Assembly: GCA_035270125.1 (NCBI GenBank)
Contig: DATFIM010000022.1
Coordinates: forward strand, 1-40,821
DNA: 40,821 nt
Direction: 5' to 3'
Source of the DNA: Halanaerobiales bacterium
GTDB taxonomy: Bacteria; Bacillota; Halanaerobiia; Halanaerobiales; DATFIM01
In this document: in pieces, positions 2,591 to 20,508 of the stretch
Position numbering within the stretch: position 1 is the stretch's first letter
Layout of the letters: each line of letters begins with the position of its first letter
Notes under the pieces: generated by a model
Told to the model about the DNA's origin: nothing
Databases searched by the model: none
What the model saw: the letters and a program-made list of their open reading frames with translations, nothing else
Position numbers and translations under genes: made by a program

Positions 2591-4438
2591 TTACTTCTTT
2601 TCTAAAACTACATTATCAATATAAATTGTAGTTACTGCACCATTATCAGTGTTTCCCAAAGAGAATACCAGTTTGGGTATATCAGCTTTACTTAGATTAA
2701 CATCAAAATTGAAGTTTTTCATTTCAGTACCTAATTCTGCATTAGTCTCACCATAAACAGTCCAGGATCCTCCATCTTCCTGAATCATAGCAATAATGTC
2801 ACGCGCTTTATCAGCTCTGGCATCAAATGATAGAGTGTATTCTCCAGCCTCTAAATCAAGATACTGTGCAAACTGAACTGCCCAGGTCTGGTTGCCGAGA
2901 CTTGTTACATCAATTTTAAATACGCCGTCTTCAACACCATAGTCTCCAACAGCTCCACCTTCACCTGCCCAGACATACCAGTTATCAGGAGCGTCTCCCA
3001 TTTCATTTACAATTTCACTGTCAAAGTTACTATTTACAACTGCATTTTTAGTATAGCCTGGTTCTTCAGATTCTCCACCTCTTTGAGTTTCATTATCTGC
3101 TGTTCTTTCTACTACATGATAGGGCTCTTCCTGATCATCAATATACCAACTGATCTGATCAGGAGTCCACTCTAGAGTAAAGGTATGGTAGCTTTCAACA
3201 AAATTACCTTCTTCTAACTCAAAATCTTCAGTGATTCCTCCACCACCATAGTGGTTAGGTCCGTGAACTGTTCCGTGAACTTCTTTTACATTCCCGGCAA
3301 TGAATTCCATAATATCAATTTCGCCACAGGCAGGCCATGGATTTTCAGCTATATCAGATCCTAACATCCAGAATGCAGGCCATAGTCCCTGTCCTTCAGG
3401 CAGTTTAGCTCTGATTTCTACCTTACCATATTTCATATTAACTTTATTTTGAGTTATCATCCTGGTAGAAGTATAATCATAACTTCCATATTGATCACTG
3501 CGATTTTCTTTTCTAGCCGTAATAACTAAGTTGCTGTCTTCAACGCGGGCATTTTCGCCTTCAGTATAATACTGTAGCTCATTATTACCCCAGCCAGGAA
3601 TTCCCTGCTTGTGACCATTTCCTACTTCATAAGTCCAGTAATCTTCATTAACTTCTTCTCCTTCAAAATCATCCTGCCAGTCTAAGTTGCCGTCCTGGTC
3701 ATAAACTTTAATGTAGTCAACTAACATTTCTCTAGGAAAATCAGTTTCAACCTGACCACCTAAATTACCACCCACAGCTACATTAAATATAAAGAAGAAG
3801 TCATTATTGTAAACCCATTCTTTTTTAGGATCTTCTGGAATTTCATCTGCAGCAGCTTCACCAATCTTTGTTATACTGACATTATCAATCCAAATTGTAC
3901 CTGTATTTTTACCTAGTTGAAATTCAACTCTTGCTTTGGGATCAGTATCTTTCCCCATTACAAATTCAAATTCATAACTTTTTAAGTTTCTGTCTAGTTC
4001 AGCTACAAAACCTCCAGTTTCACCATTACCATTAACATAGGAGTTCCAGGATCTATCAGCAGTTCCCCCAATTTTTAATTCTATTTCTCTCGGTTTAGAA
4101 GCTTTAGCATCAAATTGAACTTTATACTTATAGCCCTTTTCGATCTCAACTGGAGCCTGCATCAGCTGAATTGAATAAGTATTACTTCCACCTTCAAAAA
4201 TAGAGGCTTTAAAAGCACCATCATCCATTTCAGCTGAAGCTTCACCAGCATTTTCTAAAAAGAGCCAGCTGTCTTTAGTATCAAAGTTTCCATCACCATT
4301 ATCTGTAACTTCATTTACCCCGTAAAACCCTTCTTCAAAATCAGCATTATCCAGAATATTTTCCGCCTGAACAGAAATACTAAAAAAAACTAAAACCATC
4401 ACTAAAATCACTGAAATTTTACTTTTAAACTTTAGCAT
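2591..4438 (-). CDS. secreted GH16 beta-glucanase (laminarinase type) with circularly permuted catalytic domain and two CBM4_9 modules
   Basis: This 615-aa secreted endo-beta-glucanase is predicted to cut beta-1,3-glucan outside the cell. A signal peptide covers residues 1-25 (ending VQA). A CBM4_9-like jelly roll (about 27-192) ends in TIWIDNVSI, and a second one (466-615) ends in TIYIDNVVL. Between them lies a GH16 fold in swapped order. Residues 207-247 (EWVYNNDFFF, VAVGGN, FPREMLVDYIKVYD) are what normally ends a GH16 domain. Residues 253-445 start with the normal N-terminus (DWQDDFEG, GWGNNELQYY) and contain the catalytic EIDIME (nucleophile E373, acid/base E378). The domain is complete but circularly permuted. 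It is the last gene of the operon, 24 bases after GH30, and both have higher GC than the genes upstream. The GH16 family is certain; the exact substrate is inferred from the neighbours. Confidence 0.93.
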   Translation of the reverse strand: MLKFKSKISVILVMVLVFFSISVQAENILDNADFEEGFYGVNEVTDNGDGNFDTKDSWLFLENAGEASAEMDDGAFKASIFEGGSNTYSIQLMQAPVEIEKGYKYKVQFDAKASKPREIELKIGGTADRSWNSYVNGNGETGGFVAELDRNLKSYEFEFVMGKDTDPKARVEFQLGKNTGTIWIDNVSITKIGEAAADEIPEDPKKEWVYNNDFFFIFNVAVGGNLGGQVETDFPREMLVDYIKVYDQDGNLDWQDDFEGEEVNEDYWTYEVGNGHKQGIPGWGNNELQYYTEGENARVEDSNLVITARKENRSDQYGSYDYTSTRMITQNKVNMKYGKVEIRAKLPEGQGLWPAFWMLGSDIAENPWPACGEIDIMEFIAGNVKEVHGTVHGPNHYGGGGITEDFELEEGNFVESYHTFTLEWTPDQISWYIDDQEEPYHVVERTADNETQRGGESEEPGYTKNAVVNSNFDSEIVNEMGDAPDNWYVWAGEGGAVGDYGVEDGVFKIDVTSLGNQTWAVQFAQYLDLEAGEYTLSFDARADKARDIIAMIQEDGGSWTVYGETNAELGTEMKNFNFDVNLSKADIPKLVFSLGNTDNGAVTTIYIDNVVLEKK

Positions 4439-4462: not shown

Positions 4463-5824
4463 TTAATAAACGAGGGTCTGAATTGCATGAGCAGGTATTT
4501 GAACCTTTACCTGTTTTTTCTTTTCTTTTAGAATAAATTCCTGAGCCTCATCTTTTTCATTCATCACTACAACTGCAGTAGACTGATCTGGATTTTCGAA
4601 AGCTGTAAATAGGAGCTGATTAGTATCGTTTTCAAGACCAATTTTTACTGCTCCTGGTTTAATGTATTTGCTGAAATGACCCAGATAATAGTAGGGACTA
4701 TTATAATGAACTTTATTTTTTTCAGTATCTACAATGATCGGGGCATCACAGTAATTTTGAACATGATTTGGTCCACCTTCTTTGTTTAAAACAAGATTCC
4801 AGTCTACCCAGCCGGTTGTGTAGTGATTTAAATCCGCTATAAGATGACGACCGTATTTTTCTCCGGTCCACCACTCATCAATAAAGTTATCTGCATTAAA
4901 TAAGGGATTACAACCTTCAGTAAAGACTAATTCTTTATCATAGGTCTCATAGGTATAGCTTAAAACTTCATCATCAACTATATCCTTGCTATCATCTTCA
5001 CCATACCAGTGAAAACCTACACCCCAGACCCACTGAGCTGCTTCTGGATCAGCTAAAATGGTATCGACTCTGGATTTCATAATATCTTTGTTGTGGTCCC
5101 AGACAATAATCTTAACTTCTTCCAAACCTGCTTCTTTTAGAGTTGGACCTAAGACCTTAACAAAGTCTCTTTCTTCTTCATCTTCATAAATACAGTTGTC
5201 CCAGGGGGTCTCAGCCATTGGCTCATTCTGAATAGTCACTCCCCAGATATCTATATCTCTTTTTTGATATTCTTTAATGTATTTAACAAAATAGTCAGTC
5301 CAGGTCTGCCAGTATTCTTTTTTTAATTTACCACCTTTGTTCATCCTGCCATTGGTCTTCATCCAAGCAGGTGGACTCCAGGGAGAGGAAAAGAGTTTAA
5401 ATTCTGCTCCTTCAACTTTCATTGCATCTTTGATAAAGGGAATTAAATACTCTTCATCACGGGAAATATCAAAATCTTCAAGTTCAGTATCTTTCTCTGT
5501 TTCTGTATAAGCGTAATTCCCCAGAGAAAAGTCACAGCTATTGATATGTGTACGACATAAGCTGTAAGCTATACCTTTTTCAGGATGAAAATATGCTTCT
5601 AAGACTTCATCTCTCAACTCAACCGGTACCTGGTCTAAAGTGTAGGCCCCTGATTCAGTAAAAGCCCCACCAAAACCGGTGATCTCCTGAGCCTTTTGTT
5701 CGCGCTTGATTTCAATTACTGCTGAATCAGCAGCCGCTCCTGTTTTGAATTCTAATCTGTCTTTTTCTGTTAATCTGTCATCTGTATTTTTGGCTGTCTG
5801 AATTAATTTAATCTCTTTTGTCAT
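4463..5824 (-). CDS. GH30 family glycoside hydrolase (beta-1,6-glucanase / beta-glucosidase-like), cytoplasmic
   Basis: This 453-aa retaining (beta/alpha)8 glycosidase carries a short beta domain. The diagnostic stretches are ITGFGGAFTESGA (about 48-60), SSPWSPPAWMK (146-156), TIQNEP with acid/base E201, and VFTEG with nucleophile E303. The C-terminus is the usual small beta-sheet. No signal peptide is present, so it acts inside the cell on imported oligosaccharides. In a laminarin locus the likely job is removal of beta-1,6 branches or gentio-type linkages, since GH30 subfamilies include endo-beta-1,6-glucanases and beta-glucosidases; the subfamily cannot be fixed by eye. It lies between the cupin and the GH16 gene in the operon and shares their strand and short spacing. 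Codon use is GC-richer than in the upstream genes. Confidence 0.9.
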   Translation of the reverse strand: MTKEIKLIQTAKNTDDRLTEKDRLEFKTGAAADSAVIEIKREQKAQEITGFGGAFTESGAYTLDQVPVELRDEVLEAYFHPEKGIAYSLCRTHINSCDFSLGNYAYTETEKDTELEDFDISRDEEYLIPFIKDAMKVEGAEFKLFSSPWSPPAWMKTNGRMNKGGKLKKEYWQTWTDYFVKYIKEYQKRDIDIWGVTIQNEPMAETPWDNCIYEDEEERDFVKVLGPTLKEAGLEEVKIIVWDHNKDIMKSRVDTILADPEAAQWVWGVGFHWYGEDDSKDIVDDEVLSYTYETYDKELVFTEGCNPLFNADNFIDEWWTGEKYGRHLIADLNHYTTGWVDWNLVLNKEGGPNHVQNYCDAPIIVDTEKNKVHYNSPYYYLGHFSKYIKPGAVKIGLENDTNQLLFTAFENPDQSTAVVVMNEKDEAQEFILKEKKKQVKVQIPAHAIQTLVY

Positions 5825-5867: not shown

Positions 5868-6287
5868 TTAATTAAAGTTTGAACTTAACATCATAAGTTT
5901 ATTCCTTTGTTTTTCATTTAATTTTTGCTCTGGAGAATTATTAAGGCAGGTATTTTTATTCTCCACAATTAATACCATTGCATTTCTACTTAAAGTATGG
6001 GTATGCCATACAGATTTTTTGATATTATACATTTTATATGGTTTCATTTTTTGAGCATAAATTTTATCTATTTTCTGATCGCCCTCAGCCAAAAATAACA
6101 GACATTCTCCCTTAAGTAAAACAAAGACTTCATCAGTTTGATTATGCTTTTGCATTTTATCAATATTTTTAGGTAATAGTTCATCACAATAATTTAAAAC
6201 TGCAACTCTCCATTCCCCATAATCTATAATTGGCTTATATCCTGATTCATTATATTCTTCAATATCGATCAAATCAGATTTCATCAT
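5868..6287 (-). CDS. cupin-fold protein of unknown function in the glucan operon
   Basis: This is a small single-domain cupin of about 139 aa. Cupin motif 1 is visible as KHNQTDEVFVLLKGE and motif 2 as VWHTHTLS followed by a VLIVEN strand. The His and Glu positions could bind a metal. Similar small cupins occur in Firmicute sugar operons, and a role as a sugar-isomer binding protein or mutarotase-like helper is only a guess. I chose the ATG at 6287 because SD AAGGA lies 6 bases upstream of it; the ATG at 6293 abuts the SD. It lies between the GH94 and GH30 genes and is AT-rich like GH94, unlike GH30. Confidence 0.75.
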   Translation of the reverse strand: MMKSDLIDIEEYNESGYKPIIDYGEWRVAVLNYCDELLPKNIDKMQKHNQTDEVFVLLKGECLLFLAEGDQKIDKIYAQKMKPYKMYNIKKSVWHTHTLSRNAMVLIVENKNTCLNNSPEQKLNEKQRNKLMMLSSNFN

Positions 6288-6318: not shown

Positions 6319-9060
6319 TTAAGCTAATCTCACCTTAATTTTTAATATCTCAGATTTATTATAATTAGTAATTAAATCTCTACTGATTACAGCTTTTTTA
6401 TCTTCTAAACCAAAGTCAATGTCTTTATTATTTAATTTTATGTTTTTAATCTCATATTCTTTATAATCAAGGTTTTTATTATTTTCATATATTACAGAAA
6501 TATCTCTTTTAGCAAAAATTGTTTCTATTTTTGCTCTTCCATTTTTATCAAAATGCTCAGCCAATAATTTTGGAACCAGAACTAAATCTCCCAGTTCACC
6601 GCTTATTCCATAAACTTGAGTGACCATAGTCAACAAAAGCCAGCTAGCTGAACCTGTTAAATAATGATACATACCTCTACCTCGATTATTGAAATATTCA
6701 GGAATTCCAGGATAAATCTTACTTTCTTCAAAATTAATAGATTGATTATAAATAGAATTTATAACTTCATTACCTGCTTCAGCAAATCCTCTTTTATAAA
6801 GTGCATTACTATACATTACAGCCATATGATTGAACATAGCTCCATTTTCTTTATGACCATAGGCAAAACCAAAAGCTCTTCCCATATTTAATAAAATTTC
6901 TTTGAAATTAGTATTTAAACGATAAGCTTCAAAATTATCATCTTTTAAATATTCATTAGTACTTTTTACTATTTCTTCAATCTGATCATCTGTAGCTACA
7001 CCGCTCATAATAGGAAAAACTTGTCCTGTTAAAGTCATTCTAAATCCTAGTGAATGATCTCCTTCAAGTCGTTCTCCATTATTGTCATAATAACCATTAA
7101 AATGTTTATATCCTTTTTCATTTTCAAGCCATTCATTTTCTCTAATATTTTCTATTATCCAATTTGCTTTTTTCTCTATATCAGCAATTAAAGAATCAAT
7201 AGCAAACTTCTTCTTTTCCCCTGAAACTTTATTCTGATAGGAAGAAAAATATTTATCTAACAGTTCTTTTTTTGCACTAACTGAGTCATAATTAACTTTG
7301 TTATATATAGAGTCAAACAAATATTTCATTTCAGAAGCCAGTTTAATATTTTTTATATTTTTTTCAGATTTTAGTTTTCTTAAAAACTCAGCTATTTCCA
7401 ATAAATTGCTGGCATAGAGTGCAGTAAAAGCAACACTTTCTCCATTTTCCTCAGCCATATCAAATCCGTCATTCCAATCTCCAGCCTCTAATTTAAAATT
7501 ATTATTTTCACCAACATTGAAAAATAAACTAAGATGTTGAATTAATAAATGCTCTAAAATACTTCCCTGATAAATTTGATTATTGAAATCTAATAATTTA
7601 TTCCCATAATCCTCATTCCATTCTTCATCAATTTCTGTACCAAAAGAAGTGTGTGAATCTTTAAAATAACTCTGATTTTCAAGCAAGAAATCCAAATCTC
7701 CACTTCGATCAATATATAGTTTGGTAGTCAAAAAAGGCCAGGCACCGTGGTCCATCCAGACTCGGCTGATATTATTACGGTCAGCTATAAATTCTCCTGG
7801 TTCAGACCCTATAATTGTAGCATTTGTACCATCAAAACGAACACCAGCAAAATTATTATACAAAATGTCTCTTACATTTTCAGGCTCCATTAATAACAAG
7901 CCAAGAGAATCCTGCCATAGATCTCGCCAACCTCTTCCTCCCCGGCCATAATCATGGTGAGGTAAAAATGAACATCCAAAAATTCTTCTCAAAATAGGTT
8001 GCAAACTCACCCAGCGCATCCACTGATCAAAATCATTATTTCCAGACTCTAACTGAAATTTATCTAATTTATTCTTCCAAAATTTCTTATTTTCAGCAAG
8101 ATACTTATTAAATTTTTCATGGCTACAATATTTTTTTACAGCAGTTTTAATTAACTTATTATCTTTATTTTCATCAATGACTATTGCCAATATATAACTT
8201 TTTTCCTCATTAGGAGCCAAAGTAATATCTTTAAATCTTAAAGCTCCCATAGTTTCATAACCCTCTACTTCTGCCCCTGCATTTAAATAATCATTATTAA
8301 CTTTTGCAGCTTTTCCTGGCCAATCTAAAAATCCTTCTTCTCCAATAAAATCTTCAAGAACTGGATAAAAACCTATAGCTTTTTCAGAATTATCTTCAGT
8401 TCCTAAAACAGCATAAGAAACATAATTTTTCTTATGACCTCTCTCATCAAAAGATAAAGTAGGGGTTACAACTATTCCATCTTCTATTGTTTTTGTTCTT
8501 TGAAGTAAAGAAGTTACATGGCGGTGATCTCGTAGATTATCTGCAGATCTTCCATAAATTGGAATAGCGGAAGTAGGAGTAATTTTAATTTCCTCATCTC
8601 CATTATTTATAATTTTAACCTTCATTAATTCAACCTGATCATGATTTGCAGGCACAAAATTTGTTATTTCTGATTTAATTTTTAGTTTTTCACTTTTCCT
8701 AATAATTTTATGCCATAAAAAACCTGCTTTCACAGTTGTTTTTTCATCGTTTTTATCTAAATATTTTTTAGAATGCTGAGCTGCAGAATTGCCAGTTGCA
8801 GACCACAACTTCTTATCATTAATTAATAACCAAAAATTCCTTGCTGATCTATTATTATGAAGATTTTCTACAGACACAGGCTCCATTGCAAAAGTATTCT
8901 GTCCTGTTTTTATATCTCCATTTAATTTTGGTGTAATTGCCGACATCATTCCTACTTCATTTGTTAAAGGAAAATATATACGATTATAATTATCAGCATT
9001 TTCTAACTTAAATTCCCCAGAATTACCTGTAAAATGCCATTCATTATTTTCTTTACTCAA
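6319..9060 (-). CDS. GH94 glycoside phosphorylase, laminaribiose phosphorylase-like
   Basis: This is a cytoplasmic inverting phosphorylase of about 913 aa with the GH94 layout: N-terminal beta-sandwich, helical linker, (alpha/alpha)6 barrel and a C-terminal beta domain. The motifs are GRGGRGWRDLWQD (phosphate/sugar site, about 375-387) and AGDWNDGFDMAE with the catalytic acid Asp at about 531-534. The length and layout match laminaribiose phosphorylases (about 910 aa), longer than cellobiose phosphorylases. It would convert laminaribiose and phosphate into glucose 1-phosphate and glucose. I prefer TTG at 9060 over GTG at 9069: SD AAGGTG lies 6 bases before TTG, whereas the GTG is part of the SD. 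It directly follows the ATPase genes. The specificity is inferred from length and context; cellobiose is the alternative. Confidence 0.88.
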   Translation of the reverse strand: MSKENNEWHFTGNSGEFKLENADNYNRIYFPLTNEVGMMSAITPKLNGDIKTGQNTFAMEPVSVENLHNNRSARNFWLLINDKKLWSATGNSAAQHSKKYLDKNDEKTTVKAGFLWHKIIRKSEKLKIKSEITNFVPANHDQVELMKVKIINNGDEEIKITPTSAIPIYGRSADNLRDHRHVTSLLQRTKTIEDGIVVTPTLSFDERGHKKNYVSYAVLGTEDNSEKAIGFYPVLEDFIGEEGFLDWPGKAAKVNNDYLNAGAEVEGYETMGALRFKDITLAPNEEKSYILAIVIDENKDNKLIKTAVKKYCSHEKFNKYLAENKKFWKNKLDKFQLESGNNDFDQWMRWVSLQPILRRIFGCSFLPHHDYGRGGRGWRDLWQDSLGLLLMEPENVRDILYNNFAGVRFDGTNATIIGSEPGEFIADRNNISRVWMDHGAWPFLTTKLYIDRSGDLDFLLENQSYFKDSHTSFGTEIDEEWNEDYGNKLLDFNNQIYQGSILEHLLIQHLSLFFNVGENNNFKLEAGDWNDGFDMAEENGESVAFTALYASNLLEIAEFLRKLKSEKNIKNIKLASEMKYLFDSIYNKVNYDSVSAKKELLDKYFSSYQNKVSGEKKKFAIDSLIADIEKKANWIIENIRENEWLENEKGYKHFNGYYDNNGERLEGDHSLGFRMTLTGQVFPIMSGVATDDQIEEIVKSTNEYLKDDNFEAYRLNTNFKEILLNMGRAFGFAYGHKENGAMFNHMAVMYSNALYKRGFAEAGNEVINSIYNQSINFEESKIYPGIPEYFNNRGRGMYHYLTGSASWLLLTMVTQVYGISGELGDLVLVPKLLAEHFDKNGRAKIETIFAKRDISVIYENNKNLDYKEYEIKNIKLNNKDIDFGLEDKKAVISRDLITNYNKSEILKIKVRLA

Positions 9061-9079
9061 ACTCCTCACCTTCCAATTA

Positions 9080-10015
9080 TTATTTATTTAATTCTTCGTC
9101 ACTAAATAACACACTATGATTTTCCTCTATTTCAACAAAACCTTTATCTTTATTTTTATTATAAAATTCCCTAACATCATTAACTACCTGTTCAGGTAAA
9201 AATTCTTCATCTGGATCCCAACGTTCTCCAATTTCAGGTACAGCTTCAAAAAGCATCTGAGTATAGGGATGGGTTGCATTTTCGTATATCTTTTTAGTAT
9301 CCCCTCTTTCTACAAGTCGACCTTTATACATAATTAATGATTTATCACTAATATAATATCCTAAATTTAAATCATGAGTAATAAATATAACTGACATTCC
9401 ATTCTTTTTACAGGTTTCAATCAATAAATTTAAAACTCCAATTCTGGTAGATGCATCAAGCATACTGATTAACTCATCTGCAATTAAAATATCAACATCC
9501 ATTAAAAGTGCTCTAGCAATAAGTAATCTCTGCAGTTGTCCTCCACTTAATTGATGAGGAAATTTACCTAGAGTTCTGTCTGGATTTAAATTAACATCAC
9601 AAAGTGCTTTTTTAATTGCCCTGTCTTTATCTTCATAACCTAAATCAAAAGAATCAAAAATCATATCAAAAACCCTGTCTACTCTATAAAGTGGATTAAA
9701 CGTAGCAAATGGATCCTGAAAAATCCCCTGAACATTTCGATAATAATTCTTAAGTTCATCTTTATCATCGATTACTGAAATATCTTTTCCTCTATAAGTG
9801 ATTTTTCCTTCTGTTGGATTTATTAATTTTAAGATCAACTTACCAACTGTAGTTTTACCACTACCACTTTCACCAATAAGTGAAATTATTTTTCCTTTTT
9901 CTATATCAAATGATATATCTTTAGCAGCAACTGTATATTCTGGATTAAAAAATCCACATTTAAATACTTTAGTTAAACCATTTACTGACATTACACATTC
10001 ATTATTTTTTGCCAT
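9080..10015 (-). CDS. ABC transporter ATP-binding protein, DppF/OppF type
   Basis: This 311-aa nucleotide-binding subunit belongs to a dipeptide/oligosaccharide-type importer. Walker A is GESGSGKTT (about 54-62), the signature is LSGGQLQRLLIARAL, Walker B is ILIADELISMLD and the switch is FITHDL. The residue after the catalytic Glu is Leu where the family usually has Pro (DEP). A C-terminal oligopeptide-type extension (HPYTQMLFEAVPE) follows. The gene overlaps the end of the partner ATPase by 14 bases, indicating translational coupling. In this locus the transporter probably imports beta-glucan oligosaccharides, as the related Thermotoga cellobiose/laminaribiose systems do. Confidence 0.9.
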   Translation of the reverse strand: MAKNNECVMSVNGLTKVFKCGFFNPEYTVAAKDISFDIEKGKIISLIGESGSGKTTVGKLILKLINPTEGKITYRGKDISVIDDKDELKNYYRNVQGIFQDPFATFNPLYRVDRVFDMIFDSFDLGYEDKDRAIKKALCDVNLNPDRTLGKFPHQLSGGQLQRLLIARALLMDVDILIADELISMLDASTRIGVLNLLIETCKKNGMSVIFITHDLNLGYYISDKSLIMYKGRLVERGDTKKIYENATHPYTQMLFEAVPEIGERWDPDEEFLPEQVVNDVREFYNKNKDKGFVEIEENHSVLFSDEELNK

Positions 10016-10994
10016 TTAAATCACTTCCTAATTCTTTCCAACGCCAGCAGGAGACAAAATGATCTTCTGCTACCTTTTCTCTTTCTGGATTTTTTTCACA
10101 TTTATCTATTGAATAAGGGCAGCGCTGTCTAAAACGACAACCTTCATCAATATTTAATAAATAAGGAGGAGTTCCTTTTATTCCAGATAATTTTTTGTCA
10201 TTATACTGAATACCTACCTGTGGAAGAGAGTCAATTAAAGCTCTAGTATAAGGATGGCGAGGATTATTAACAATCTCATCAGTAGGTCCAATTTCTGCAA
10301 AATTTCCAGCATACATTATCATTATCCGGTCAGCTATCTGATATAATATTGATAAATCATGTGTTATAAAAATTGAAGATTTTATTATTTCTAAATCTCT
10401 TAAATTAGAAAGCATTGTAGCTACAAAGCGCTGAGAACTAACATCTAAAGCAGATGTTATTTCATCGGCAATTAAAAATTCTGGATCTAAGATTGTAGAT
10501 ATAATCATAATAACTCTTTGTTTCATTCCACCTGATAATTCAAAAGAATATCTATTTAAAACTGATTCATCAAGATTAACTAAGTCTAAGCGATCTTTTA
10601 CTTTCTTAAAAAATTCTTTATTTGTTTTCACTCCATGCTGTTTTGCTAAATCTGATATATAAGTTTTTATTTTTTTAGTAGGAGAAAAAGCATCTAAAGC
10701 ATATTGAGGAATTAAAGAAATTGTTCTTAAACGCAATTTTTTAAATTCTTTTTCACTCATATTCATTATCTTGTTTCCAACTAAATCAACCTCACCAGAC
10801 ATATATTTTAGAGGTCTTTTACAGGAAATAAAAGTATTAGCTAACGTACTTTTTCCACAACCAGATTCACCTGCTAACCCCAGAATTTCTCCTTTTTTTA
10901 AATTAAATGTTACATTATCTACTGCTTTAACCTGACCTTTTAAAATATCATAATATGCTTTTAAGTTTTTTACTTTTAATATATTTTCAGTCAT
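10002..10994 (-). CDS. ABC transporter ATP-binding protein, DppD/OppD type
   Basis: This 330-aa ATPase partners the DppF-type subunit. Walker A is GESGCGKST (about 42-50), the signature is LSGGMKQRVIMI, Walker B is FLIADEITSALD and the switch is FITHDLS. The C-terminal oligopeptide/dipeptide-type domain contains the Cys-rich stretch CRFRQRCPYSIDKC, seen in OppD/DppD proteins where it can bind an iron-sulfur cluster. The gene starts 3 bases after the permease stop and its end overlaps the next ATPase gene, so the four membrane/ATPase subunits form one tight block. Confidence 0.9.
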   Translation of the reverse strand: MTENILKVKNLKAYYDILKGQVKAVDNVTFNLKKGEILGLAGESGCGKSTLANTFISCKRPLKYMSGEVDLVGNKIMNMSEKEFKKLRLRTISLIPQYALDAFSPTKKIKTYISDLAKQHGVKTNKEFFKKVKDRLDLVNLDESVLNRYSFELSGGMKQRVIMIISTILDPEFLIADEITSALDVSSQRFVATMLSNLRDLEIIKSSIFITHDLSILYQIADRIMIMYAGNFAEIGPTDEIVNNPRHPYTRALIDSLPQVGIQYNDKKLSGIKGTPPYLLNIDEGCRFRQRCPYSIDKCEKNPEREKVAEDHFVSCWRWKELGSDLNGKK

Positions 10995-10997
10995 AAT

Positions 10998-11861
10998 TTA
11001 CATCTCCCTTAATCTAGGGTTAAAGGCTGCATCTAAGCCTGTATTTATAAAATAAAGTGCTGTAATTAAAATCGCAAGTATTAATCCAGGTATTATAGCC
11101 CACCACCACATACCAAGTTGTATTCCATTCCAGTTTACAGCATTCTGCATTACAAGTCCCAGAGAAATTCCTTTAGTTGGGCCAAGACCTAAAAATTCAA
11201 GCTGAACGGTGGCCAACATCGTACTATTAAACTGTTGAATAAATACCATAAATACATATGAAAACATGTTTGCTGCAATATCTTCTCTTAGAATTCTACC
11301 AACACTTATCGCAGATATTCTTGATAAGGAAACATATTCTTCATTTTTTAAAGAAAGTGTCTGTGACCTAACAGCTCTAGCAGTCCAGGGCCATGCAGTT
11401 AAAGAAACAATTACAGCCATAATTACAACCCCTCTAACCTCAAGAAACGCAGCAATTACAATCAACAAAGCCAGTTGAGGAATTACCACAAAAATATTTG
11501 TAAGCATCATTAAAAGTTCATCAAAAATTGTACCTCCATAATAACCTGCTAAAAATCCAATTACACAACCGACTAAAGTTGCTATTGTACCGGCTATTGC
11601 TCCAACTAAAAGGGTTGAACGTAAACCATAAACTGTTCTAGTAAATACATCTCTCCCATCAATAGTTGTTCCAAAAAAATGTTGACTGGATGGAGGTAAA
11701 TATCCTGCTCCTGCATATTCATCATACTCATATTTTGATATCATAGGTCCAAAAACTGCTAACATAAATACTAAAACAACTATTGTTAGGCCAAATATAA
11801 CCTTTTTGTTTGTTAATGCATAATATAAGTTTTCATGTTTTGCCCAAAAGTTTTTTAACAT
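10998..11861 (-). CDS. ABC transporter permease, DppC/OppC type
   Basis: This 287-aa inner-membrane permease has about six membrane helices. The first (about 22-44) is followed by the periplasmic segment with FGTTIDGRDVFTR that is characteristic of OppC/DppC. The EAA-like loop appears as LSLKNEEYVSLSRISAIS. It begins 3 bases after the stop of the other permease, with its SD (GAGGAG) inside that gene's last codons. Confidence 0.9.
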   Translation of the reverse strand: MLKNFWAKHENLYYALTNKKVIFGLTIVVLVFMLAVFGPMISKYEYDEYAGAGYLPPSSQHFFGTTIDGRDVFTRTVYGLRSTLLVGAIAGTIATLVGCVIGFLAGYYGGTIFDELLMMLTNIFVVIPQLALLIVIAAFLEVRGVVIMAVIVSLTAWPWTARAVRSQTLSLKNEEYVSLSRISAISVGRILREDIAANMFSYVFMVFIQQFNSTMLATVQLEFLGLGPTKGISLGLVMQNAVNWNGIQLGMWWWAIIPGLILAILITALYFINTGLDAAFNPRLREM

Positions 11862-11864
11862 AAC

Positions 11865-12854
11865 TTACATCTCCTCTGTATATGAAAGTCTTACTCGCGG
11901 ATCAATAAACATATAGATTATATCTACAGTAAAGTTTGCTACTAAAACCATAGTGACAATTGTTAGAAATATTCCCTGCATCAAAAAATAATCCTGATTT
12001 TGTACTGCATTCAGAAGTAATCTTCCCAAACCAGGATAGTTAAATACTACCTGAACTGTAATAGCTCCTCCTACAATTCTACCTAATCTTAGAGCAAGAC
12101 CTGTAACCTGAGGTAAAACTCCATTTCTAAAACCATACTTACGGATTAACTTTCTTGAAGAACCTAATGTTTCCATATATTTTGAATAATTTGAGCTTTT
12201 CTCATACATAATCATATTTCTCATCCCGATAGCCCATCCTCCAAGCTGTACTAAAAACATAGTGAAAAATGGTAAAAACCAGTGGTGTAAAAAATTTATA
12301 ATAAAACTAAAGTTTAAACCTGGAGATGCAGTTGAACTATAAGCTCCGCTGATTGGAAACCACCCAATAACTACTCCAAAGAAAAAGGCCACAATTCCAG
12401 CCATCCAAAAATATGGTGAAGCTGCTAAAAAATAAAAGAAGGGCATTGTTGTTTTATCAACTCTTTTATTAGTACCTGAATATGCTCCTAATTTATTTCC
12501 AACTACCCAACTTGATATAATTGCAGGAAGTAATACAGAAATATCAAATACTATTGCTCTTTTTATAATATCTAAAACTGGAGTTGGAAACTGAATAATT
12601 GAAATCCCAAAATCAAGCGTAAAAATCGATTTCCAAAAATTTACATACTGTAGCCATAAAGGCTGATCAAGATTAAATAACAAAGTAAGCTGATCTTCTA
12701 AAATCTGACGCCCACCTTCCATACCTGAAAAACGAGATAAAAGTGATTGAATTGGATCACCAGGCATCATTCTTGGAATAAAAAAGTTGATAGTAACTGC
12801 AAGAATAAATGTTATTATATAAATTACTATTTTTTTCGCTAAATATCTACCCAT
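11865..12854 (-). CDS. ABC transporter permease, DppB/OppB type
   Basis: This 329-aa permease has an N-terminal helix (about 9-27), the MMPGDP motif (29-34) and further helices of the BPD_transp_1 domain. The cytoplasmic loop reads YSKYMETLGSSRK and the C-terminus RVRLSYTEEM. Together with the OppC-like subunit it forms the translocation channel. A good SD (AAAGGAGGAG) precedes the ATG. It is separated from the binding-protein gene by a strong hairpin, which suggests the binding protein is made in excess. Confidence 0.9.
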   Translation of the reverse strand: MGRYLAKKIVIYIITFILAVTINFFIPRMMPGDPIQSLLSRFSGMEGGRQILEDQLTLLFNLDQPLWLQYVNFWKSIFTLDFGISIIQFPTPVLDIIKRAIVFDISVLLPAIISSWVVGNKLGAYSGTNKRVDKTTMPFFYFLAASPYFWMAGIVAFFFGVVIGWFPISGAYSSTASPGLNFSFIINFLHHWFLPFFTMFLVQLGGWAIGMRNMIMYEKSSNYSKYMETLGSSRKLIRKYGFRNGVLPQVTGLALRLGRIVGGAITVQVVFNYPGLGRLLLNAVQNQDYFLMQGIFLTIVTMVLVANFTVDIIYMFIDPRVRLSYTEEM

Positions 12855-12876
12855 TTTTGCTCCTCCTTTATAAATA

Positions 12877-12904
12877 ACAGGTCCGATAATATTATCGGAC
12901 CTGT
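12877..12904. terminator. intra-operon hairpin (perfect 28-bp palindrome) between binding protein and permease genes
   Basis: A perfect 14+14 inverted repeat, one arm being ACAGGTCCGATAAT, lies in the 83-base gap. On the minus strand it is followed by an AT-rich stretch but no long T run, so it may act as a partial terminator or as a 3' mRNA-stabilising hairpin for the binding-protein message. Transcription must partly pass it to express the permeases. Confidence 0.75.
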
Positions 12905-12937
12905 ATATTAAAAGATATATTTTCCCCTCTTTTAATT

Positions 12938-14623
12938 TTACTTAGCTGGTTCTATGTTAATTAGAGTTTCAATCATACCTAACTGATAGGCATTACCCCA
13001 ACTAACTGGAACACCATATGGATCATTTTCATTAGGCCAGTTTGTCCAGTATTGAGTTGTTTGCTGTGCCCATAAACCATTATGCCATAGAGGTACACTT
13101 GGCATATCTATTAATAATGTTTTCTGTATCTCAGAAGCTAGTTCCTGCTTTTCTTCTTCATCTTTTATCATATTGAACTGGTCAATTTTTTTGAATAATT
13201 CAGGATTATCATAAGCTCCCCAATTACCATTAGTTATTTGTTCACCATGGATACTACTGTTTGCAACACCATTCCAGTAATCAAATGGAGTAGAAGATAG
13301 TGTTGTCTGGAAAACCCCAATCATCATATCAAAGTTTTTATTAAAACGTCTATTATCAAATAGTGAACTATCAGGGAAATCGGGAGTAATCTTAATACCA
13401 ATTTCTTCAGCATCAGCTGAAATTGATCTAACTGCTGACATCCAGTCAGTCCAACCACTTGGAACCATAATTTTCAATTCAAGTGGATCTCCATTTGGCA
13501 TTTCTCTCCAGCCATCACCATCTTCATCAACATAACCTGCATCAATTAGTAAACCTTTAGCTTTTGTAGGATTATATTCAAAACCATAATCTTCTACTAC
13601 TTCTTCATCAAGATAAGATTCCCAGCCTTCTCCAAATAATCCTGTAGGATTAGATGGCTTTACCAGACCGCCATAAACTTTATTTACAATATTATCTTTA
13701 TTAACCATAAAAGCCATTGCTCTTCTAAATTGAGTATCATCCATTGGTTCTCGAGTTGTATTCATATACATTAGAGCAGTATTCCAGGAAAGCATATAAG
13801 GCTCTTCTTCATACCAGGTTTTTAACCCAAATTGTTTTTTAACTCTTTGAACTCCTGGAATAAAGTTATTACTTAAATCAAGCTCACCCTTCATTAACAT
13901 TCCCATTACAATATTATTACTCTGATTTACAAGATCAACAAGATATTTAGGAGTAGGCTGACCAAATACATCATTACCCCACCAATCATCATTTCTTTCC
14001 CAAACCATTCTATCCTGACCAGCTTCTTTAGCAGTATAAGGACCTGTACCAACTGGATCTTTCATAGCATTAGTAATTAATTGATCTGAAGGAATTTCAC
14101 TCCAGATATGTTCTGGAATAATATAACGTTCATACAATTCTGCATTCCATTCTGCATAATGCGGCTCACTAAATGTAAATCTTACTGTATAATTATCTTC
14201 AGCTTTTACAGATTCCATCCAGTTCCATATTGGAGAATAGAAAACATCATTTTCTTTGGCCAATTCATATGTGAAAACAACATCTTCAGCATTAAATTCT
14301 TCTCCATCATGCCAATTAATATTCTCTCTCAAATTAAGAACATATTCGTCATCTGATACCCATTCTCCACTTTTAGCTAACCAGGGAGTATACTCATCTT
14401 TCACAGGATTATATGAAAACATAGGCTCATATACCAAACCTCCTGTACCAGGAGTACAGTTAGGAATCAAAATATTCCAGGTTGATGGAGGACCCCACAT
14501 AGCACCAGAAACTACCAATGTCTTATCACGATCTAATTCCAAGGCAAATGAAACTGTACTAAAAGCCAAAACCAATACCAACACTAAAGTTAAAAATAAA
14601 GATAATTTTGAATAAAACTTCAC
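12938..14623 (-). CDS. extracellular solute-binding protein, family 5 (oligosaccharide/oligopeptide)
   Basis: This periplasmic SBP_bac_5 protein of 561 aa captures the ligand for the DppBCDF-like importer. I chose GTG at 14623, which gives a clean signal peptide (KFYSKLSLFLTLVLVLVLAF, then ...STVSFA) behind SD AAGGGGTG; the frame stays open upstream to 14728, but that stretch contains the operator and a hairpin. The mature protein shows the family pattern (LVYEPMFSYN, WHDGEEFNAEDVVFTYE, NKDNIVNKVYGG). There is no lipobox Cys, so the protein would be free in a periplasm. The glycan ligand is inferred from the neighbours, and from the many Trp residues, which suit sugar binding. Confidence 0.9.
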   Translation of the reverse strand: MKFYSKLSLFLTLVLVLVLAFSTVSFALELDRDKTLVVSGAMWGPPSTWNILIPNCTPGTGGLVYEPMFSYNPVKDEYTPWLAKSGEWVSDDEYVLNLRENINWHDGEEFNAEDVVFTYELAKENDVFYSPIWNWMESVKAEDNYTVRFTFSEPHYAEWNAELYERYIIPEHIWSEIPSDQLITNAMKDPVGTGPYTAKEAGQDRMVWERNDDWWGNDVFGQPTPKYLVDLVNQSNNIVMGMLMKGELDLSNNFIPGVQRVKKQFGLKTWYEEEPYMLSWNTALMYMNTTREPMDDTQFRRAMAFMVNKDNIVNKVYGGLVKPSNPTGLFGEGWESYLDEEVVEDYGFEYNPTKAKGLLIDAGYVDEDGDGWREMPNGDPLELKIMVPSGWTDWMSAVRSISADAEEIGIKITPDFPDSSLFDNRRFNKNFDMMIGVFQTTLSSTPFDYWNGVANSSIHGEQITNGNWGAYDNPELFKKIDQFNMIKDEEEKQELASEIQKTLLIDMPSVPLWHNGLWAQQTTQYWTNWPNENDPYGVPVSWGNAYQLGMIETLINIEPAK

Positions 14624-14660
14624 GTTAACACCCCTTTTTTGTTTTTTGAACTTTCTATAT

Positions 14661-14686
14661 AAAAATCCCTTTAAAATACGGGATTT
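14661..14686 (-). terminator. hairpin between regulator and transporter operon
   Basis: On the minus strand AAATCCC (14680-14686) and GGGATTT (14663-14669) pair around a 10-base loop, followed by TTTTT. It probably terminates the upstream lacI transcript. Because it lies between the operator at 14694 and the binding-protein start, it could also attenuate the operon. Confidence 0.6.
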
Positions 14687-14693
14687 GTTAACT

Positions 14694-14709
14694 TTGTAAG
14701 CGGTTACAA
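14694..14709. promoter_or_regulatory. LacI-family operator upstream of the transporter operon
   Basis: TTGTAAGCGGTTACAA is a near-perfect 16-bp dyad with a central CG, typical of LacI/GalR operators. It lies 71 bases upstream of the binding-protein start and just after the stop codon of the regulator gene. It matches the sites at 15774 and 20591. Confidence 0.85.
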
Positions 14710-14724
14710 TAACAGCAATAAAAA

Positions 14725-15738
14725 TCATCTTATGTCTTTACATGATTCTCTTTCGATTAATTCAACAGGTAAAATAATTGGAGAACTACTTTTATCAGAT
14801 TTCCCCATCATACTTATCAATAATTGAGTAGCAGATTCCCCCATTTTCTTTTTATTCTGTTTAACTGTTGTTAAAGCTGGTTTAACATAACTGCTAACTT
14901 CTATATCATCAAAACCAATTATAGAAAAATCTTTTGGTATTTCAAGTCCTGCATCTTCAATTGCTCTCATTGCACCGATAGCCATAGTATCACTCTGACA
15001 AAAAATTGCTGTTGGCTGATCATCTAAATTTAATATTTTTTTTGCAGCCTTGTAACCACCCTTTTCAGAATATTTTCCATTAAATATCCAATCAGAATTA
15101 TATTTTATATTCAATTCTTCAAGAGCTTCTTCAAATCCTTTAAATCTATCATTAGTGGGTTTAGTTGCTTTAATTCCGGCAATCATTCCGATTTTTTTAT
15201 GGCCCATTTCTTTAAAATAATTAACAGCTTTTTTTGCCCCTGAAATATTATTAGACATTACATAAGAAGCATTTTCTCTCTTTATATCAATATCTACAAA
15301 TACAACAGGTATATCTGACTCTAATAATTTTGGTAAGTTAGGATCATCTTTTAACACTCCCATCAATACTACTCCATCAACATGACGATCCTGACATTTT
15401 TCAAGGTAACTAAATTCATCACCCCATTGCCTATTTGTAAAATAGAGAATGTCATAACCTTTTTTACCTAAATTCTTTTCCAGACCATAAATTACTTCTC
15501 TAAAAAATGGATGATGGAGGCCGCTATTGAAATGATCTGTAAAAAATACTCCTATTATATTTGATCTGTTAGTAGATAAACTTCTGGCAACAGTATTCGG
15601 TCTATAATTATTTTCTTTAATTATTTTGATTATTTTTTCTCTGGTTTCATCTTTTACAGCAGGATGGTCATTAATTACTCTAGAAACTGTTGCTGTGGAA
15701 ACATTAGCCTGAATTGCAATATCTTTTATTGTAGTCAT
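14725..15738 (-). CDS. LacI-family transcriptional regulator of the glucan locus
   Basis: This 337-aa protein begins with the classic LacI helix-turn-helix (TIKDIAIQANVSTATVSRVI, residues 3-22) and hinge (YRPNTVARSLSTNRS). A periplasmic-binding-like effector domain follows (GVFFTDHF, DGVVLMGV, PTAIFCQSDTMAIGAM, IGFDDIEVSSYVKPALTT). The start ATG has SD AAGGAGG. An operator 36 bases upstream of the ATG suggests autoregulation, and identical sites precede the transporter operon and the GH1 gene. The effector is probably a beta-glucan oligosaccharide, which is an inference from context. Confidence 0.93.
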   Translation of the reverse strand: MTTIKDIAIQANVSTATVSRVINDHPAVKDETREKIIKIIKENNYRPNTVARSLSTNRSNIIGVFFTDHFNSGLHHPFFREVIYGLEKNLGKKGYDILYFTNRQWGDEFSYLEKCQDRHVDGVVLMGVLKDDPNLPKLLESDIPVVFVDIDIKRENASYVMSNNISGAKKAVNYFKEMGHKKIGMIAGIKATKPTNDRFKGFEEALEELNIKYNSDWIFNGKYSEKGGYKAAKKILNLDDQPTAIFCQSDTMAIGAMRAIEDAGLEIPKDFSIIGFDDIEVSSYVKPALTTVKQNKKKMGESATQLLISMMGKSDKSSSPIILPVELIERESCKDIR

Positions 15739-15882: not shown

Positions 15883-18800
15883 TTATTTTAGATTAATAAA
15901 AAGATAATCAATTTTACCATTACGTAGTTTTTTTGCATATTTTCCTTTGATTTTAGATCCTTTTATCTCAATTTTTTCACCATTAATTAAAAATTCAAAA
16001 CTTTTTATTTTAACTTTATTATCACCAAAAGTGTTTTTATTCTTAGGATTATTGTAAACAGCAATCGTATGGCCTAATAACCTAAAAGCAAAAGAATTTT
16101 TTGGTATTTTAAAATTTACTTTTTTCTTTTTAGACAACTGAAAACTAACATCTCTATCTTCCTGGGTAAAAATATCTTTTTGTAGAATTGGACGTGGCTT
16201 AAAACATAATTTATTATTTTCATAAACAAATGGCTTAGGACCAAAAGCAATCAATGACCAAATATGCAAAAACTCTGCTGTTGACCCACTCAAACGAGCT
16301 ATATATCCACGACCATGATTTTTAACATCAGTATTTAAGCTACTCATAATAAAAGAACTATTTTCTAAAATACTTCTACCATATCTTTCTGGATCTTGAA
16401 AAGGAATTAAAACATCTTTCATAACCTTATAAAATTCTTCATTTAAATTACTTTTTAATAACTCCAAAAGATATTTATATTCCATATGAAGCCAAATTGA
16501 ACCATTTTCTAACCATCCTGAACTAAAAGCTCTGGCTCTACCTATATCATCTGGCATATCTGAAAGATCTCCATTAAGTCGATACATCTTCAGTTTTTTA
16601 TCATATAATTCACTTTTACAAACACTTTGATGTAAATCAAGTATTTTCTCTTTATTCTCCAATATTTTCATGGCCCTAACCTGTCCTTCAAGAAAAGGAG
16701 GAAGAGCATGCTGTGCAAATTCTTTTACCTTAATATACTGATTACCCTTTTTCGAATAAAACCCTGTTTTTTCATATTCTTCTGGTAAATAGTAATAATA
16801 GGTATTGTAAAGACCACTTTTTTTGTTATAAGATTTCTTAATTGCAGAATTAAGCTTCATTTTACTCATATTTAAAAAAGATTTAAGCTCATTATATTGC
16901 ATTTCTTTTGTTTGTCCATTTATACCTTTGAAAACCTTATTTCTGTAAACTTCCTTTAAGCTAGTAGCTTGATCCCAATAAGAAAAATCGTCTTCTTGTT
17001 TCTGCCATTTTACTAATTCCTGTTCCAGTTCTCTTATAAAATCATAAACTTCTACAGGCAATTTGACATTAGGTTTTATTTTATCTATTTTTTCTATTAA
17101 AAAATCAACTAATCTATATAATTCCATAACTTCAGGAGTTGAAGAACCAAATATTCCAGGCAATCCATTTAAAGCATCATACCATCCCGGTTTATTTGCT
17201 TCCATTTCAATCCCTACTCCTTCAGGATCAAAAGATGCTAATTTATTAACTACTATTGCAAGTAATTTATTCATTAAATTTGTTTTAAATATCTTTCCGT
17301 TTTTCTTTCTTAACTGTTTAGATTTAAATTTACGATTTTTTATTTCAGCTTTTTTCTCTTCATCAACTTTAACTGCATCTAACTGTCTGGGGCCATTATT
17401 TGTTAGAACATATTTTTCACTTCTGGGATTTACGCGGACATAATTATCGTAATAAGTATAACTATTATCATTTATAAGCAATTCATATTCTTTTTCAGGA
17501 TAAACAGCCAGGTAGTTTTTAATTAAATCTAAAAGATATGTCCAGTGATCTATCCAAAATCCTTCTCCATGCTCAGCTTCTATTTTGCTTTCTGCTTTTT
17601 TCATAATTTTATTTATGAATTCTTCTAAAGAAACACTAAGTTTAACCTCATTATCAGTTATAAATAGACCTAAATCACCAGGAGTAAATTGTTTTTTTAA
17701 TCTATTATCTACTAAAGTTTTTTTGTTTTTTACTAATTTTATAAACTCTTTTCTATCATTTCTTTTCAAATGAAAACTCAGGCCTTTAATTAATAATGGA
17801 TTAAATCCATCTATTTGAATGAGATTTGCAAATAGCTTTATATTTGACTTTTGAACTTTTGGATTAAATAAATTATCAGACCTTCTATTCTGATTAACAT
17901 CTCTATAATTCCCATTACCCTGTGAAAAATAATTAGGTTCTAATTGAAAAAAATTATAATCTCTTTCCAAATCACCATGTTTACGAGAAAAAAGATGATA
18001 AGTATGATCTCCAATTTCAGAAGGAAATCCTCCTCTAAGAACATTATCCAAAAAAGTCTGTCTGCAGTATTGATCAAATTGAGAATAATTACTTACTGTA
18101 AAAATATGATCCAAATAATAGTTATGTATTTTTTTGTTTTCTTTTTCTTTATAATTAACATAACCTGGTTCTAAAATTTTCTTCTTTATAGTTTCAAGTT
18201 TTTTCTTTGAACTAGTGTGACCATAAAAAGAATTAATAACTATTTCATCTCCACCATTCACTTTTTTTATAACCGAACTCATAGCTGATGGATAACGATT
18301 TTCTAAAAGTTGTTCCCCCTGAAAATCAGCTAATATTTTTCTTTCAAAATTAACTGGGTTTAAAAAAGATTTATTATTGGCAAAGATGATCTCAGGATCT
18401 ACTAAAGGTTGCAGTATTTTATTATCACCATTATCAGAAGAAAAAGAAAGAAAGAAATGACCAGAATTTATTTCTTTTACTTCAGGTTTATCATCAGCAG
18501 TTGCACTTATTCTAAAAAAAGGCATTTTTTCTTCCATATTATCAACTCTACACCAACCAGACATAGTCTGGCTAACTTCCTTTAGAGCTTGATTTGATAA
18601 CCCTTCAGGTATCACTTCAGGTAAACCATCAAGAACTTCTAATTTTATATCTTTATCAGCTAAATTTTTGATGTTCACTCTTCTTACCAATGAGCCAAAG
18701 TTTTCTCCTGGTAAAATAAAATAATTTATTAAAATTTCAAGATCTAATTCATGATTTACTTCTTTTAATGTTAAAGAATAAGGTTCAATTATCATTTTAT

Positions 18801-19101
18801 TTTTTATCTTATCTGAAGTTTTCTTAAATGGTTCATATACATAATCAGATTCAATAAATTTAATAAATGTTCTAAAACCTTTAAGGGGAGTTAGTTGATA
18901 TGATTTATTAGCAGGATTGAACTCCATAATAGCGTGATCCTTATTTTTTATACCAAAACTAGCAATCCCCTGTCCCCTATTTACATAAAAAGCCCAGATA
19001 GGAACCCCCATTTTTCCTGCAATTCCTGGTAAAAAACTGGAAAAGGTTTTTTGTTTTTGATAATTTTCTATTATAAATTTTCCTTTTTCATTTAGATGCA
19101 C
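15883..19101 (-). CDS. GH161/GH149-type beta-1,3-glucan phosphorylase (GH94-related)
   Basis: This is a 1072-aa cytoplasmic phosphorylase without a signal peptide. The N-terminal half starts FLPGIAGKMGVPIWAFYVNR (23-42), then ASFGIKNKDHAIMEF. The barrel carries YRDVNQNRRSDNLF (399-412), the counterpart of the GH94 RD-xx-QD motif, and WIDHWTYLLDLI (516-527). GWYDALNG (639-646) corresponds to the GH94 W-N-D-x-L-N loop, making D642 the likely acid. The length of nearly 1100 aa and the architecture fit the GH149/GH161 beta-1,3-glucan phosphorylases rather than GH94. It would shorten beta-1,3-oligoglucans with phosphate, releasing glucose 1-phosphate. The start is GTG at 19101 behind AAGGAGTG. It is co-transcribed 57 bases after GH1. 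The choice between GH161 and GH149 is by context and recall, not computed. Confidence 0.8.
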   Translation of the reverse strand: MHLNEKGKFIIENYQKQKTFSSFLPGIAGKMGVPIWAFYVNRGQGIASFGIKNKDHAIMEFNPANKSYQLTPLKGFRTFIKFIESDYVYEPFKKTSDKIKNKMIIEPYSLTLKEVNHELDLEILINYFILPGENFGSLVRRVNIKNLADKDIKLEVLDGLPEVIPEGLSNQALKEVSQTMSGWCRVDNMEEKMPFFRISATADDKPEVKEINSGHFFLSFSSDNGDNKILQPLVDPEIIFANNKSFLNPVNFERKILADFQGEQLLENRYPSAMSSVIKKVNGGDEIVINSFYGHTSSKKKLETIKKKILEPGYVNYKEKENKKIHNYYLDHIFTVSNYSQFDQYCRQTFLDNVLRGGFPSEIGDHTYHLFSRKHGDLERDYNFFQLEPNYFSQGNGNYRDVNQNRRSDNLFNPKVQKSNIKLFANLIQIDGFNPLLIKGLSFHLKRNDRKEFIKLVKNKKTLVDNRLKKQFTPGDLGLFITDNEVKLSVSLEEFINKIMKKAESKIEAEHGEGFWIDHWTYLLDLIKNYLAVYPEKEYELLINDNSYTYYDNYVRVNPRSEKYVLTNNGPRQLDAVKVDEEKKAEIKNRKFKSKQLRKKNGKIFKTNLMNKLLAIVVNKLASFDPEGVGIEMEANKPGWYDALNGLPGIFGSSTPEVMELYRLVDFLIEKIDKIKPNVKLPVEVYDFIRELEQELVKWQKQEDDFSYWDQATSLKEVYRNKVFKGINGQTKEMQYNELKSFLNMSKMKLNSAIKKSYNKKSGLYNTYYYYLPEEYEKTGFYSKKGNQYIKVKEFAQHALPPFLEGQVRAMKILENKEKILDLHQSVCKSELYDKKLKMYRLNGDLSDMPDDIGRARAFSSGWLENGSIWLHMEYKYLLELLKSNLNEEFYKVMKDVLIPFQDPERYGRSILENSSFIMSSLNTDVKNHGRGYIARLSGSTAEFLHIWSLIAFGPKPFVYENNKLCFKPRPILQKDIFTQEDRDVSFQLSKKKKVNFKIPKNSFAFRLLGHTIAVYNNPKNKNTFGDNKVKIKSFEFLINGEKIEIKGSKIKGKYAKKLRNGKIDYLFINLK

Positions 19102-19158: not shown

Positions 19159-20508
19159 TTACTTTTCCAAACCATTATTTTTAATTACTTTTTTATACCA
19201 TTTAGCACTGTCCTTCAGATACCGTTCTTGACTATTATCATAATCTATATATACCAATCCAAAACGTTTATCATAACCATAAGCCCATTCAAAATTATCC
19301 ATTAAAGACCAGACATAATAGCCCTGCAAATTCACACCATTCTCAATAGCTTTATGAGCAGCTTTAAAATGTTTTTTCAAATATTCAATACGCTCATTAT
19401 CTTTAATCCTTCCATCATTTAACTCATCTTTAAAAGCTGCACCATTTTCAGTTATATAAAGAGGTAGATCACCATATTTTTCTTTAATTTCTATCAAAAG
19501 ATCATACAATCCTTGAGGATAAACTTCCCACCCCATATCAGTATATTTACTACCTTCTGGCTTAATATTACTAATTGGTATAATTTTGTTATTACTATTA
19601 TATTTTGTTACAGCTCTGGTATAATAATTAATTCCTAAAAAATCTATTTCTTTAGCTATTAACTTCATATCATCATCTTTGATTTCAAATCCGCCAACTG
19701 CTTGATTATAAATATTCAAAAGTCTTCCTGGATATTTCTCTTTAAAAATCGGATCTAAAAACCAGTTGTTTATATTTTCTTTTGCTAATTTCGCTGCTTT
19801 TTTATCTTTTTTAGAACTACTTGCAGGATAAGTTTGATGAAGATTAAGAGTAATACCAATTTCTCCATCTAAATTTTTACTTCTAAATCTTTCAACAGAT
19901 TTACCATGGGAAACTAAAAGATTATGAGAAGCATTTAAAGCTAATTTCAAATCATTTAGTCCTGGAGCATGTTCTCCCTTATGATGACCTAAGAAAGAAA
20001 CAACCCAGGGTTCATTATGAGTTATCCAACGATCAACCTTATCTCCAAGCTCATCAAACATTAATTCAGCATATTCTGCAAAATATTCAGCTACATCTCT
20101 ATTTGCCCAGCCTCCTATTTTTTGCAATTCAAAAGGTAAGTCCCAATGATATAGGGTTAATGTAGGTGAAATTTCTGCTTCAAGTAACTTTTCTATTAAT
20201 CTTTTATAAAAGTCAAGCCCTTTTTGATTTACCTTTCCCTTTCCATCAGGAATAATTCTTGGCCAGGATACAGAAAACCTATATGTATCCAGCCCCAATT
20301 GTTTCATGATCTCTACATCCTCTTCAAATCGATGATAATGATCACAGGCCACATCTCCTTTATCAGCATTCTTTACATTACCTGGAGTATGACTAAAACT
20401 GTCCCAAATGGACATTTTCTTTCCATCTTTATTCCAGGCTCCTTCTATTTGATATGAAGCTGTAGCGGCTCCCCAGATAAAATTATCAGGAAAAAAAAGT
20501 TTGTTCAT
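19159..20508 (-). CDS. bglA: GH1 family beta-glucosidase
   Basis: This 449-aa protein is of full GH1 length. The N-terminal GH1 signature is FIWGAATASYQIEG (10-23). The acid/base is E166 in THNEPW and the nucleophile is E354 in YITENG. WSLMDNFEWAYGY lies near the C-terminus. No signal peptide is present. It hydrolyses the terminal beta-glucosyl bonds of imported glucan oligosaccharides to glucose. There is no phosphate-site signature that I can identify, so a 6-phospho-beta-glucosidase is less likely given the ABC-type importer. It is the first gene of a two-gene unit with the large phosphorylase, under an operator at 20591. The start ATG has SD AAGGAGTG. Confidence 0.93.
   Translation of the reverse strand: MNKLFFPDNFIWGAATASYQIEGAWNKDGKKMSIWDSFSHTPGNVKNADKGDVACDHYHRFEEDVEIMKQLGLDTYRFSVSWPRIIPDGKGKVNQKGLDFYKRLIEKLLEAEISPTLTLYHWDLPFELQKIGGWANRDVAEYFAEYAELMFDELGDKVDRWITHNEPWVVSFLGHHKGEHAPGLNDLKLALNASHNLLVSHGKSVERFRSKNLDGEIGITLNLHQTYPASSSKKDKKAAKLAKENINNWFLDPIFKEKYPGRLLNIYNQAVGGFEIKDDDMKLIAKEIDFLGINYYTRAVTKYNSNNKIIPISNIKPEGSKYTDMGWEVYPQGLYDLLIEIKEKYGDLPLYITENGAAFKDELNDGRIKDNERIEYLKKHFKAAHKAIENGVNLQGYYVWSLMDNFEWAYGYDKRFGLVYIDYDNSQERYLKDSAKWYKKVIKNNGLEK

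Follow-up and report, generated by a model that had tools for sequence, protein, structure and literature searches.

The window, which is the whole 40,821-nucleotide stretch of DNA that was analysed, comes from the draft genome (243 contigs) of a salt-loving bacterium of the order Halanaerobiales. A run of genes on its minus strand encodes a secreted GH16 laminarinase, which is the only GH16 protein found in the genome, together with glycosidases, phosphorylases, an importer and a regulator. The features are as follows, with the basis of each assignment in brackets.

2591..4438, minus: permuted GH16 laminarinase, 615 aa, secreted (ORF; domain order from Pfam, phmmer and native profile)
4364..4438, minus: probable signal peptide, residues 1-25, ending ..VQA/EN (by inspection: basic start, hydrophobic core, AXA-like site)
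3860..4363, minus: N-side CBM_4_9 module (CBMa), residues 26-193 (Pfam PF02018; clusters with native N-side CBMs)
3695..3829, minus: GH16 C-terminal segment, placed first, residues 204-248 (native profile 193-239; 3azx 206-255)
3677..3700, minus: junction of the former termini (YDQDGNLD), residues 247-254 (in the AF2 model of the domain, a tight hairpin between strands 38-48 and 54-58)
3101..3694, minus: GH16 N-terminal segment, placed second, residues 249-446 (native profile 3-193; 3azx 8-204)
3305..3322, minus: catalytic motif EIDIME, residues 373-378 (E373, D375, E378; EIDIME or EIDMME in every permuted protein)
2597..3046, minus: C-side CBM_4_9 module (CBMb), residues 465-614 (PF02018; 1gui match 467-612; clusters with native C-side CBMs)
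4463..5824, minus: GH30 glycosidase adjoining the laminarinase (Pfam PF02055/PF17189; syntenic)
6319..9069, minus: GH94 laminaribiose phosphorylase (6ggy laminaribiose phosphorylase, 1118 bits, whole length)
9080..14728, minus: Opp-type ABC importer with two ATPases, two permeases and a binding protein (Pfam identifies the binding protein and one each of the ATPases and permeases; ORFs)
14725..15738, minus: LacI-type regulator (Pfam)
15883..19101, minus: GH161 phosphorylase (9qqk GH161 phosphorylase, 795 bits)
19159..20508, minus: GH1 beta-glucosidase (Pfam)

The region at 3104-3820 (minus strand; residues 207-445 of the 615-aa ORF) had been predicted to hold a naturally circularly permuted GH16 domain of laminarinase type, and the sequence searches bear this out. 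When the protein is compared with the PDB by phmmer, chain positions 8-204 of the Thermotoga maritima laminarinase 3azx match residues 248-445 (i-E 1.8e-67), and chain positions 206-255 match residues 199-247 (i-E 3.8e-6). The two pieces lie in swapped order, and the break falls in a single native loop, namely the SWYIDDQ..YHVV / EWVYNN loop of GH16. A profile made from 113 GH16 sequences in native order divides the protein in the same way: model positions 193-239 correspond to residues 204-248, and positions 3-193 to residues 251-449 (52 and 252 bits). The matches are complementary, without gap or overlap, and each piece occurs once; no native-profile match lies beyond residue 449, and there is thus no second C-terminal copy in the protein. 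A rotated copy matches the profile as a single domain at 317.5 bits, while the better half of the real order reaches 251.6 bits. When native proteins are swapped by hand, their profile matches split as those of the window protein do.

Pfam presents the enzyme differently. PF00722 (GH16) scores 84.6 bits against a cut-off of 22, but covers only profile positions 5-141 of 175 and ends at residue 449; it stops at position 141 because the GH16 pieces are swapped, as the two-piece match to 3azx shows. This is a warning for annotation, since Pfam displays a truncated GH16 and overlooks the displaced end. PF02018 (CBM4/9) is above its cut-off at 89.7 bits over two stretches, and 1gui, a CBM of T. maritima Lam16A, matches residues 467-612. 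The protein is a laminarinase-type GH16 both by profile match and by the catalytic motif E-x-D-x-(x)-E with the extra residue. Native N-to-C order is absent, the C segment standing ahead of the N segment; that order is a usual but not a defining trait of GH16, and the Fibrobacter lichenase is also without it. As single, complementary pieces whose order is swapped relative to its relatives, the domain is, at the level of sequence, a natural circular permutant.

The search for other proteins of the same order found them in six further genomes of the order Halanaerobiales (G016, G019, G024, G025, G026 and G030). Identity to the window protein is 76% in G016 and G019, 61% in G025 and 57-58% in G024 and G026; the G030 protein has 288 aa and consists of a signal peptide and the permuted GH16 only. 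Named records with the permuted order are Halanaerobium saccharolyticum WC1, which is an isolate, Halanaerobium sp. 5-U2 and Halanaerobiaceae MAGs. The original prediction had CBMs capping both new ends. This is true of four of the seven genomes, including that of the window; two (G024 and G026) have the N-side CBM only, and G030 has none. None of the other GH16 genes retrieved has this order; they came from Halanaerobiales, the class, a phylum sample and the 80 best loci among 84,980 species. Searches of the window genome for GH81 and GH17 gave no match, but neither did their controls, so these negatives carry no weight. Fourteen loci first flagged as permuted (L081, L085, L086 and others) proved to be adjacent or fused native GH16 units. 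A scan of viruses gave five GH16 relatives, none of them classed as permuted and one without a C match; plasmid matches by tblastn were all under 60% identity.

To place the permutants, 71 GH16 domains were put in native order (N+C) for a tree. The permuted proteins form one clade (SH-aLRT 100 for N+C; 99/99 for the N segment alone), and its neighbours are native CBM-GH16-CBM laminarinases of Halanaerobiia (G031, G052 and Halanaerobacter jeridensis). In gene order, GH161, GH30 and a native GH16 gene in G057 correspond to GH161, GH30 and the permuted GH16 gene in G024, G025 and G026. The junctions, too, read like native boundaries. In G025, KIGEEDLGD / KKEWVYDKEYF can be compared with KVGQEELAEE and DKEWVYDHPHF of native H. 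jeridensis; at the other junction, LFHVVERTADNE.. / ..NEIVNGDF can be compared with native LFHVVNKDEV and NEVVNGDF. That the permutation had a single origin in Halanaerobiales, its ancestor being a CBM-GH16-CBM laminarinase of the same locus, is part of the best explanation of the data: a secreted endo-beta-1,3-glucanase with a naturally circularly permuted GH16 domain. We give this reading as a whole a probability of about 0.92.

A swapped order might also come from gene fusion instead of the permutation of one gene: two neighbouring GH16 paralogues would have formed a chimera, one supplying the C segment and the other the N segment. In relatives, GH16 genes often stand in tandem or close together (G031, G051, G052, G056 and Bacteroidota loci), and an intergenic stretch of H. 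saccharolyticum WC1 preserves a 28-aa remnant of the 3' end of a further GH16 gene. However, within the limits of its 45 columns, too few for a resolved tree, the C segment points to the CBM-GH16-CBM lineage to which the N segment belongs, and a single native gene accounts for both the flanking CBMs and the locus. Such a fusion is unlikely.

Much less probable still is a cyclic rotation of the whole gene from an ancestral GH16N-CBM-CBM-GH16C, which the original prediction had hinted at as the origin. The module order formally fits, but the CBM tree speaks against it: the N-side CBM falls among native N-side CBMs (85/82), and its C-side counterpart among native C-side CBMs (99/94). None of the proteins scanned has CBMs inside GH16, a native CBM-GH16-CBM gene occupies the same locus, and the G030 permutant, which consists of GH16 alone, does without any CBM.

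The CBMs at their own ends and the native gene at the same locus show that the swap was confined to GH16 and happened in place. Such a swap would most simply have come about by in-frame tandem duplication of GH16, after which the N part of the first copy and the C part of the second were lost. No duplicated GH16-GH16 intermediate was found in the permuted lineage; neighbouring GH16 genes are frequent, but the one in-frame tandem observed belongs to a distant SAR92 protein.

In the permuted enzyme, the chain would start in the loop that in native order leads into the last pair of strands (EWVYNN..VGGN..VDYIKVYD). A hairpin of two to four residues (DQDG) would then link the old C- and N-terminal strands, after which the chain would pass through the whole core with its catalytic EIDIME and exit at the entry loop. 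The closed fold would be an ordinary retaining beta-1,3-glucanase fold with the new ends in one loop, and both CBM4/9 modules would be attached there. Structure prediction is consistent with this path. From six aligned permuted sequences, AF2 produced a model with pLDDT 77 and pTM 0.82; when native N and C pieces were added as separate rows, these rose to 94.6 and 0.91, giving one confident domain with a beta jelly-roll fold. The old ends are joined in this model by the short hairpin VYDQDGNLDW (strands 38-48 and 54-58), in keeping with the prediction that only a few residues connect them. Foldseek superposed the sequential part on 4dfs at 1.0 A over 196 columns with a TM of 0.75, where the ceiling for a sequential match is about 0.78. 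Because Foldseek aligns sequentially, the position of the displaced strands is read from AF2 confidence only (pLDDT 93-98 per block of the displaced segment), and this suggests that they occupy their native slot. With high AF2 confidence and a core that superposes at 1.0 A, the fold is predicted to close like that of an ordinary GH16. Pairing of the half-domains across two chains, as in a domain-swapped dimer, is hard to credit: the linkers to the CBMs look flexible and no tool result favours a dimer, whereas the monomer is predicted confidently, the hairpin between the old ends is tight, and the core superposes on the catalytic domains of single-chain laminarinases.

The permuted domain is under purifying selection. 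In the least saturated pairs, dN/dS is 0.12 (window versus WC1) and 0.105 (G024 versus G026). The catalytic motif is intact in all permuted members, the WC1 protein carrying EIDMME. Low dN/dS, the intact motif and the laminarin operon together indicate a working endo-beta-1,3-glucanase. The best reading of the sequence is that it acts outside the cell and feeds a laminarin pathway. Cut beta-1,3-glucan would pass through the adjacent ABC importer, gene-for-gene matches of which adjoin the native GH16 of G004, to the laminaribiose and GH161 phosphorylases, GH30 and GH1. The operon context also supports putative retaining beta-1,3 hydrolysis. That the gene owes its order to faulty assembly or binning, or is a functionless product of rearrangement and decay, has next to no probability: the window genome is a 243-contig draft, but the swapped order recurs in seven genomes, including the isolate WC1 and a 499-kb contig, which rules out an assembly error or a join within the gene, and dN/dS near 0.1 and the intact motif speak against decay.

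The closest characterised enzymes are Lam16A of Thermotoga maritima and T. petrophila (3azx and 4dfs), which share 52-53% identity over the core, superpose at 1.0-1.2 A and have EIDIME. Their architecture, like that of the window protein, is of the CBM4-GH16-CBM4 type. They are in native order, whereas here the last 45 or so GH16 residues come first. The CBM-GH16-CBM laminarinases of Halanaerobiia (G031, G052, G057 and H. jeridensis) are nearest in the trees and have the same CBM types at the same ends, and that of G057 lies in the same GH161-GH30-GH16 locus as the permutants; all are in native order.

Natural permutation of GH16 is already known. The 1,3-1,4-beta-glucanase of Fibrobacter succinogenes (1mve) is described as a natural GH16 permutant (Tsai et al. 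2003, cited in PMC4606783 and PMC2395249). It is likewise a natural circular permutation of the GH16 jelly roll, but it is a lichenase rather than a laminarinase, and its break is different, as had been predicted: positions 6-118 of 1mve correspond to residues 321-437 of the window protein, and the 1mve chain starts near residue 316-321 in the same numbering, about 125 residues from the break at 446/204. The permutation here is therefore independent. Fungal TOS1, according to a 2010 paper cited in PMC4176579, is a permuted 1,3-beta-glucanase; it also has a permuted beta-1,3-glucanase-like fold, but belongs to a eukaryotic family, and PF10287 (TOS1) matches the window protein below threshold (14.5 bits, cut-off 27, E 0.027). 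Structures of engineered Bacillus beta-glucanase permutants (1CPM, 1AJK and 1AJO; sites 59, 84 and 127 of 2AYH) have been solved (PMC2395249). These show that the GH16 jelly roll tolerates new ends, but they are artificial and are lichenases; 1ajo reaches a TM of only 0.5 against the AF2 model of the window protein (Foldseek). No permuted bacterial laminarinase of this kind was found in the literature searched, which was covered in part. A bacterial laminarinase permutant with a different break is a new, independent case.

Natural circular permutations that trace to a single origin in a tree and have an unpermuted orthologue, of the same class and at the same locus, are to our knowledge scarce. 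Since cousins keep the native gene at the same chromosomal place, the rise of such rearrangements can be studied directly; the permuted enzyme, its native cousins (H. jeridensis and G057) and the CBM-less permutant of G030 can be compared side by side. It is conceivable, though doubtful, that permutation between fixed CBMs was retained because the shifted CBM attachment changed the action on polymeric beta-1,3-glucan. If this is true, a locus that holds the native orthologue in some genomes and the permuted one in others would amount to a natural experiment on what causes circular permutation.

Several other features were seen at the loci compared. In SAR92 clade bacterium H921 (L102:2681-4705), a 674-aa GH16-GH16 protein has a first GH16 without its first strand (profile from 34), and the motif APVWSDEFDGG follows the last strand of that domain; this looks like a second, one-strand GH16 permutation. 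The remnant in WC1 (L033:9184-9267, minus strand; also L034) lies between native GH16 and GH30 genes and encodes 28 aa of a GH16 3' end (GGNWPGYPDSTTEFPQKMYVDWVRVYK, then a stop); it is read as a scar of recombination or gene loss. G031 encodes a 1309-aa protein (L032:10298-14227) consisting of CBM-GH16-CBM and about 570 further residues, by eye another glycosidase and a binding module, and it looks like a two-enzyme relative in native order. Two further ORFs lie close to the laminarinase gene in the window. One (1969-2487, plus strand; 172 aa) matches positions 74-234 of the 291 in an aldo/keto reductase profile and has the same extent beside the permuted gene of WC1; it looks like a gene fragment. 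The other (5868-6293, minus strand) encodes a 141-aa protein with no Pfam match. It also occurs between GH94 and GH161 in G024 and G025 (62-66% identity), and is a further member of the laminarin locus.
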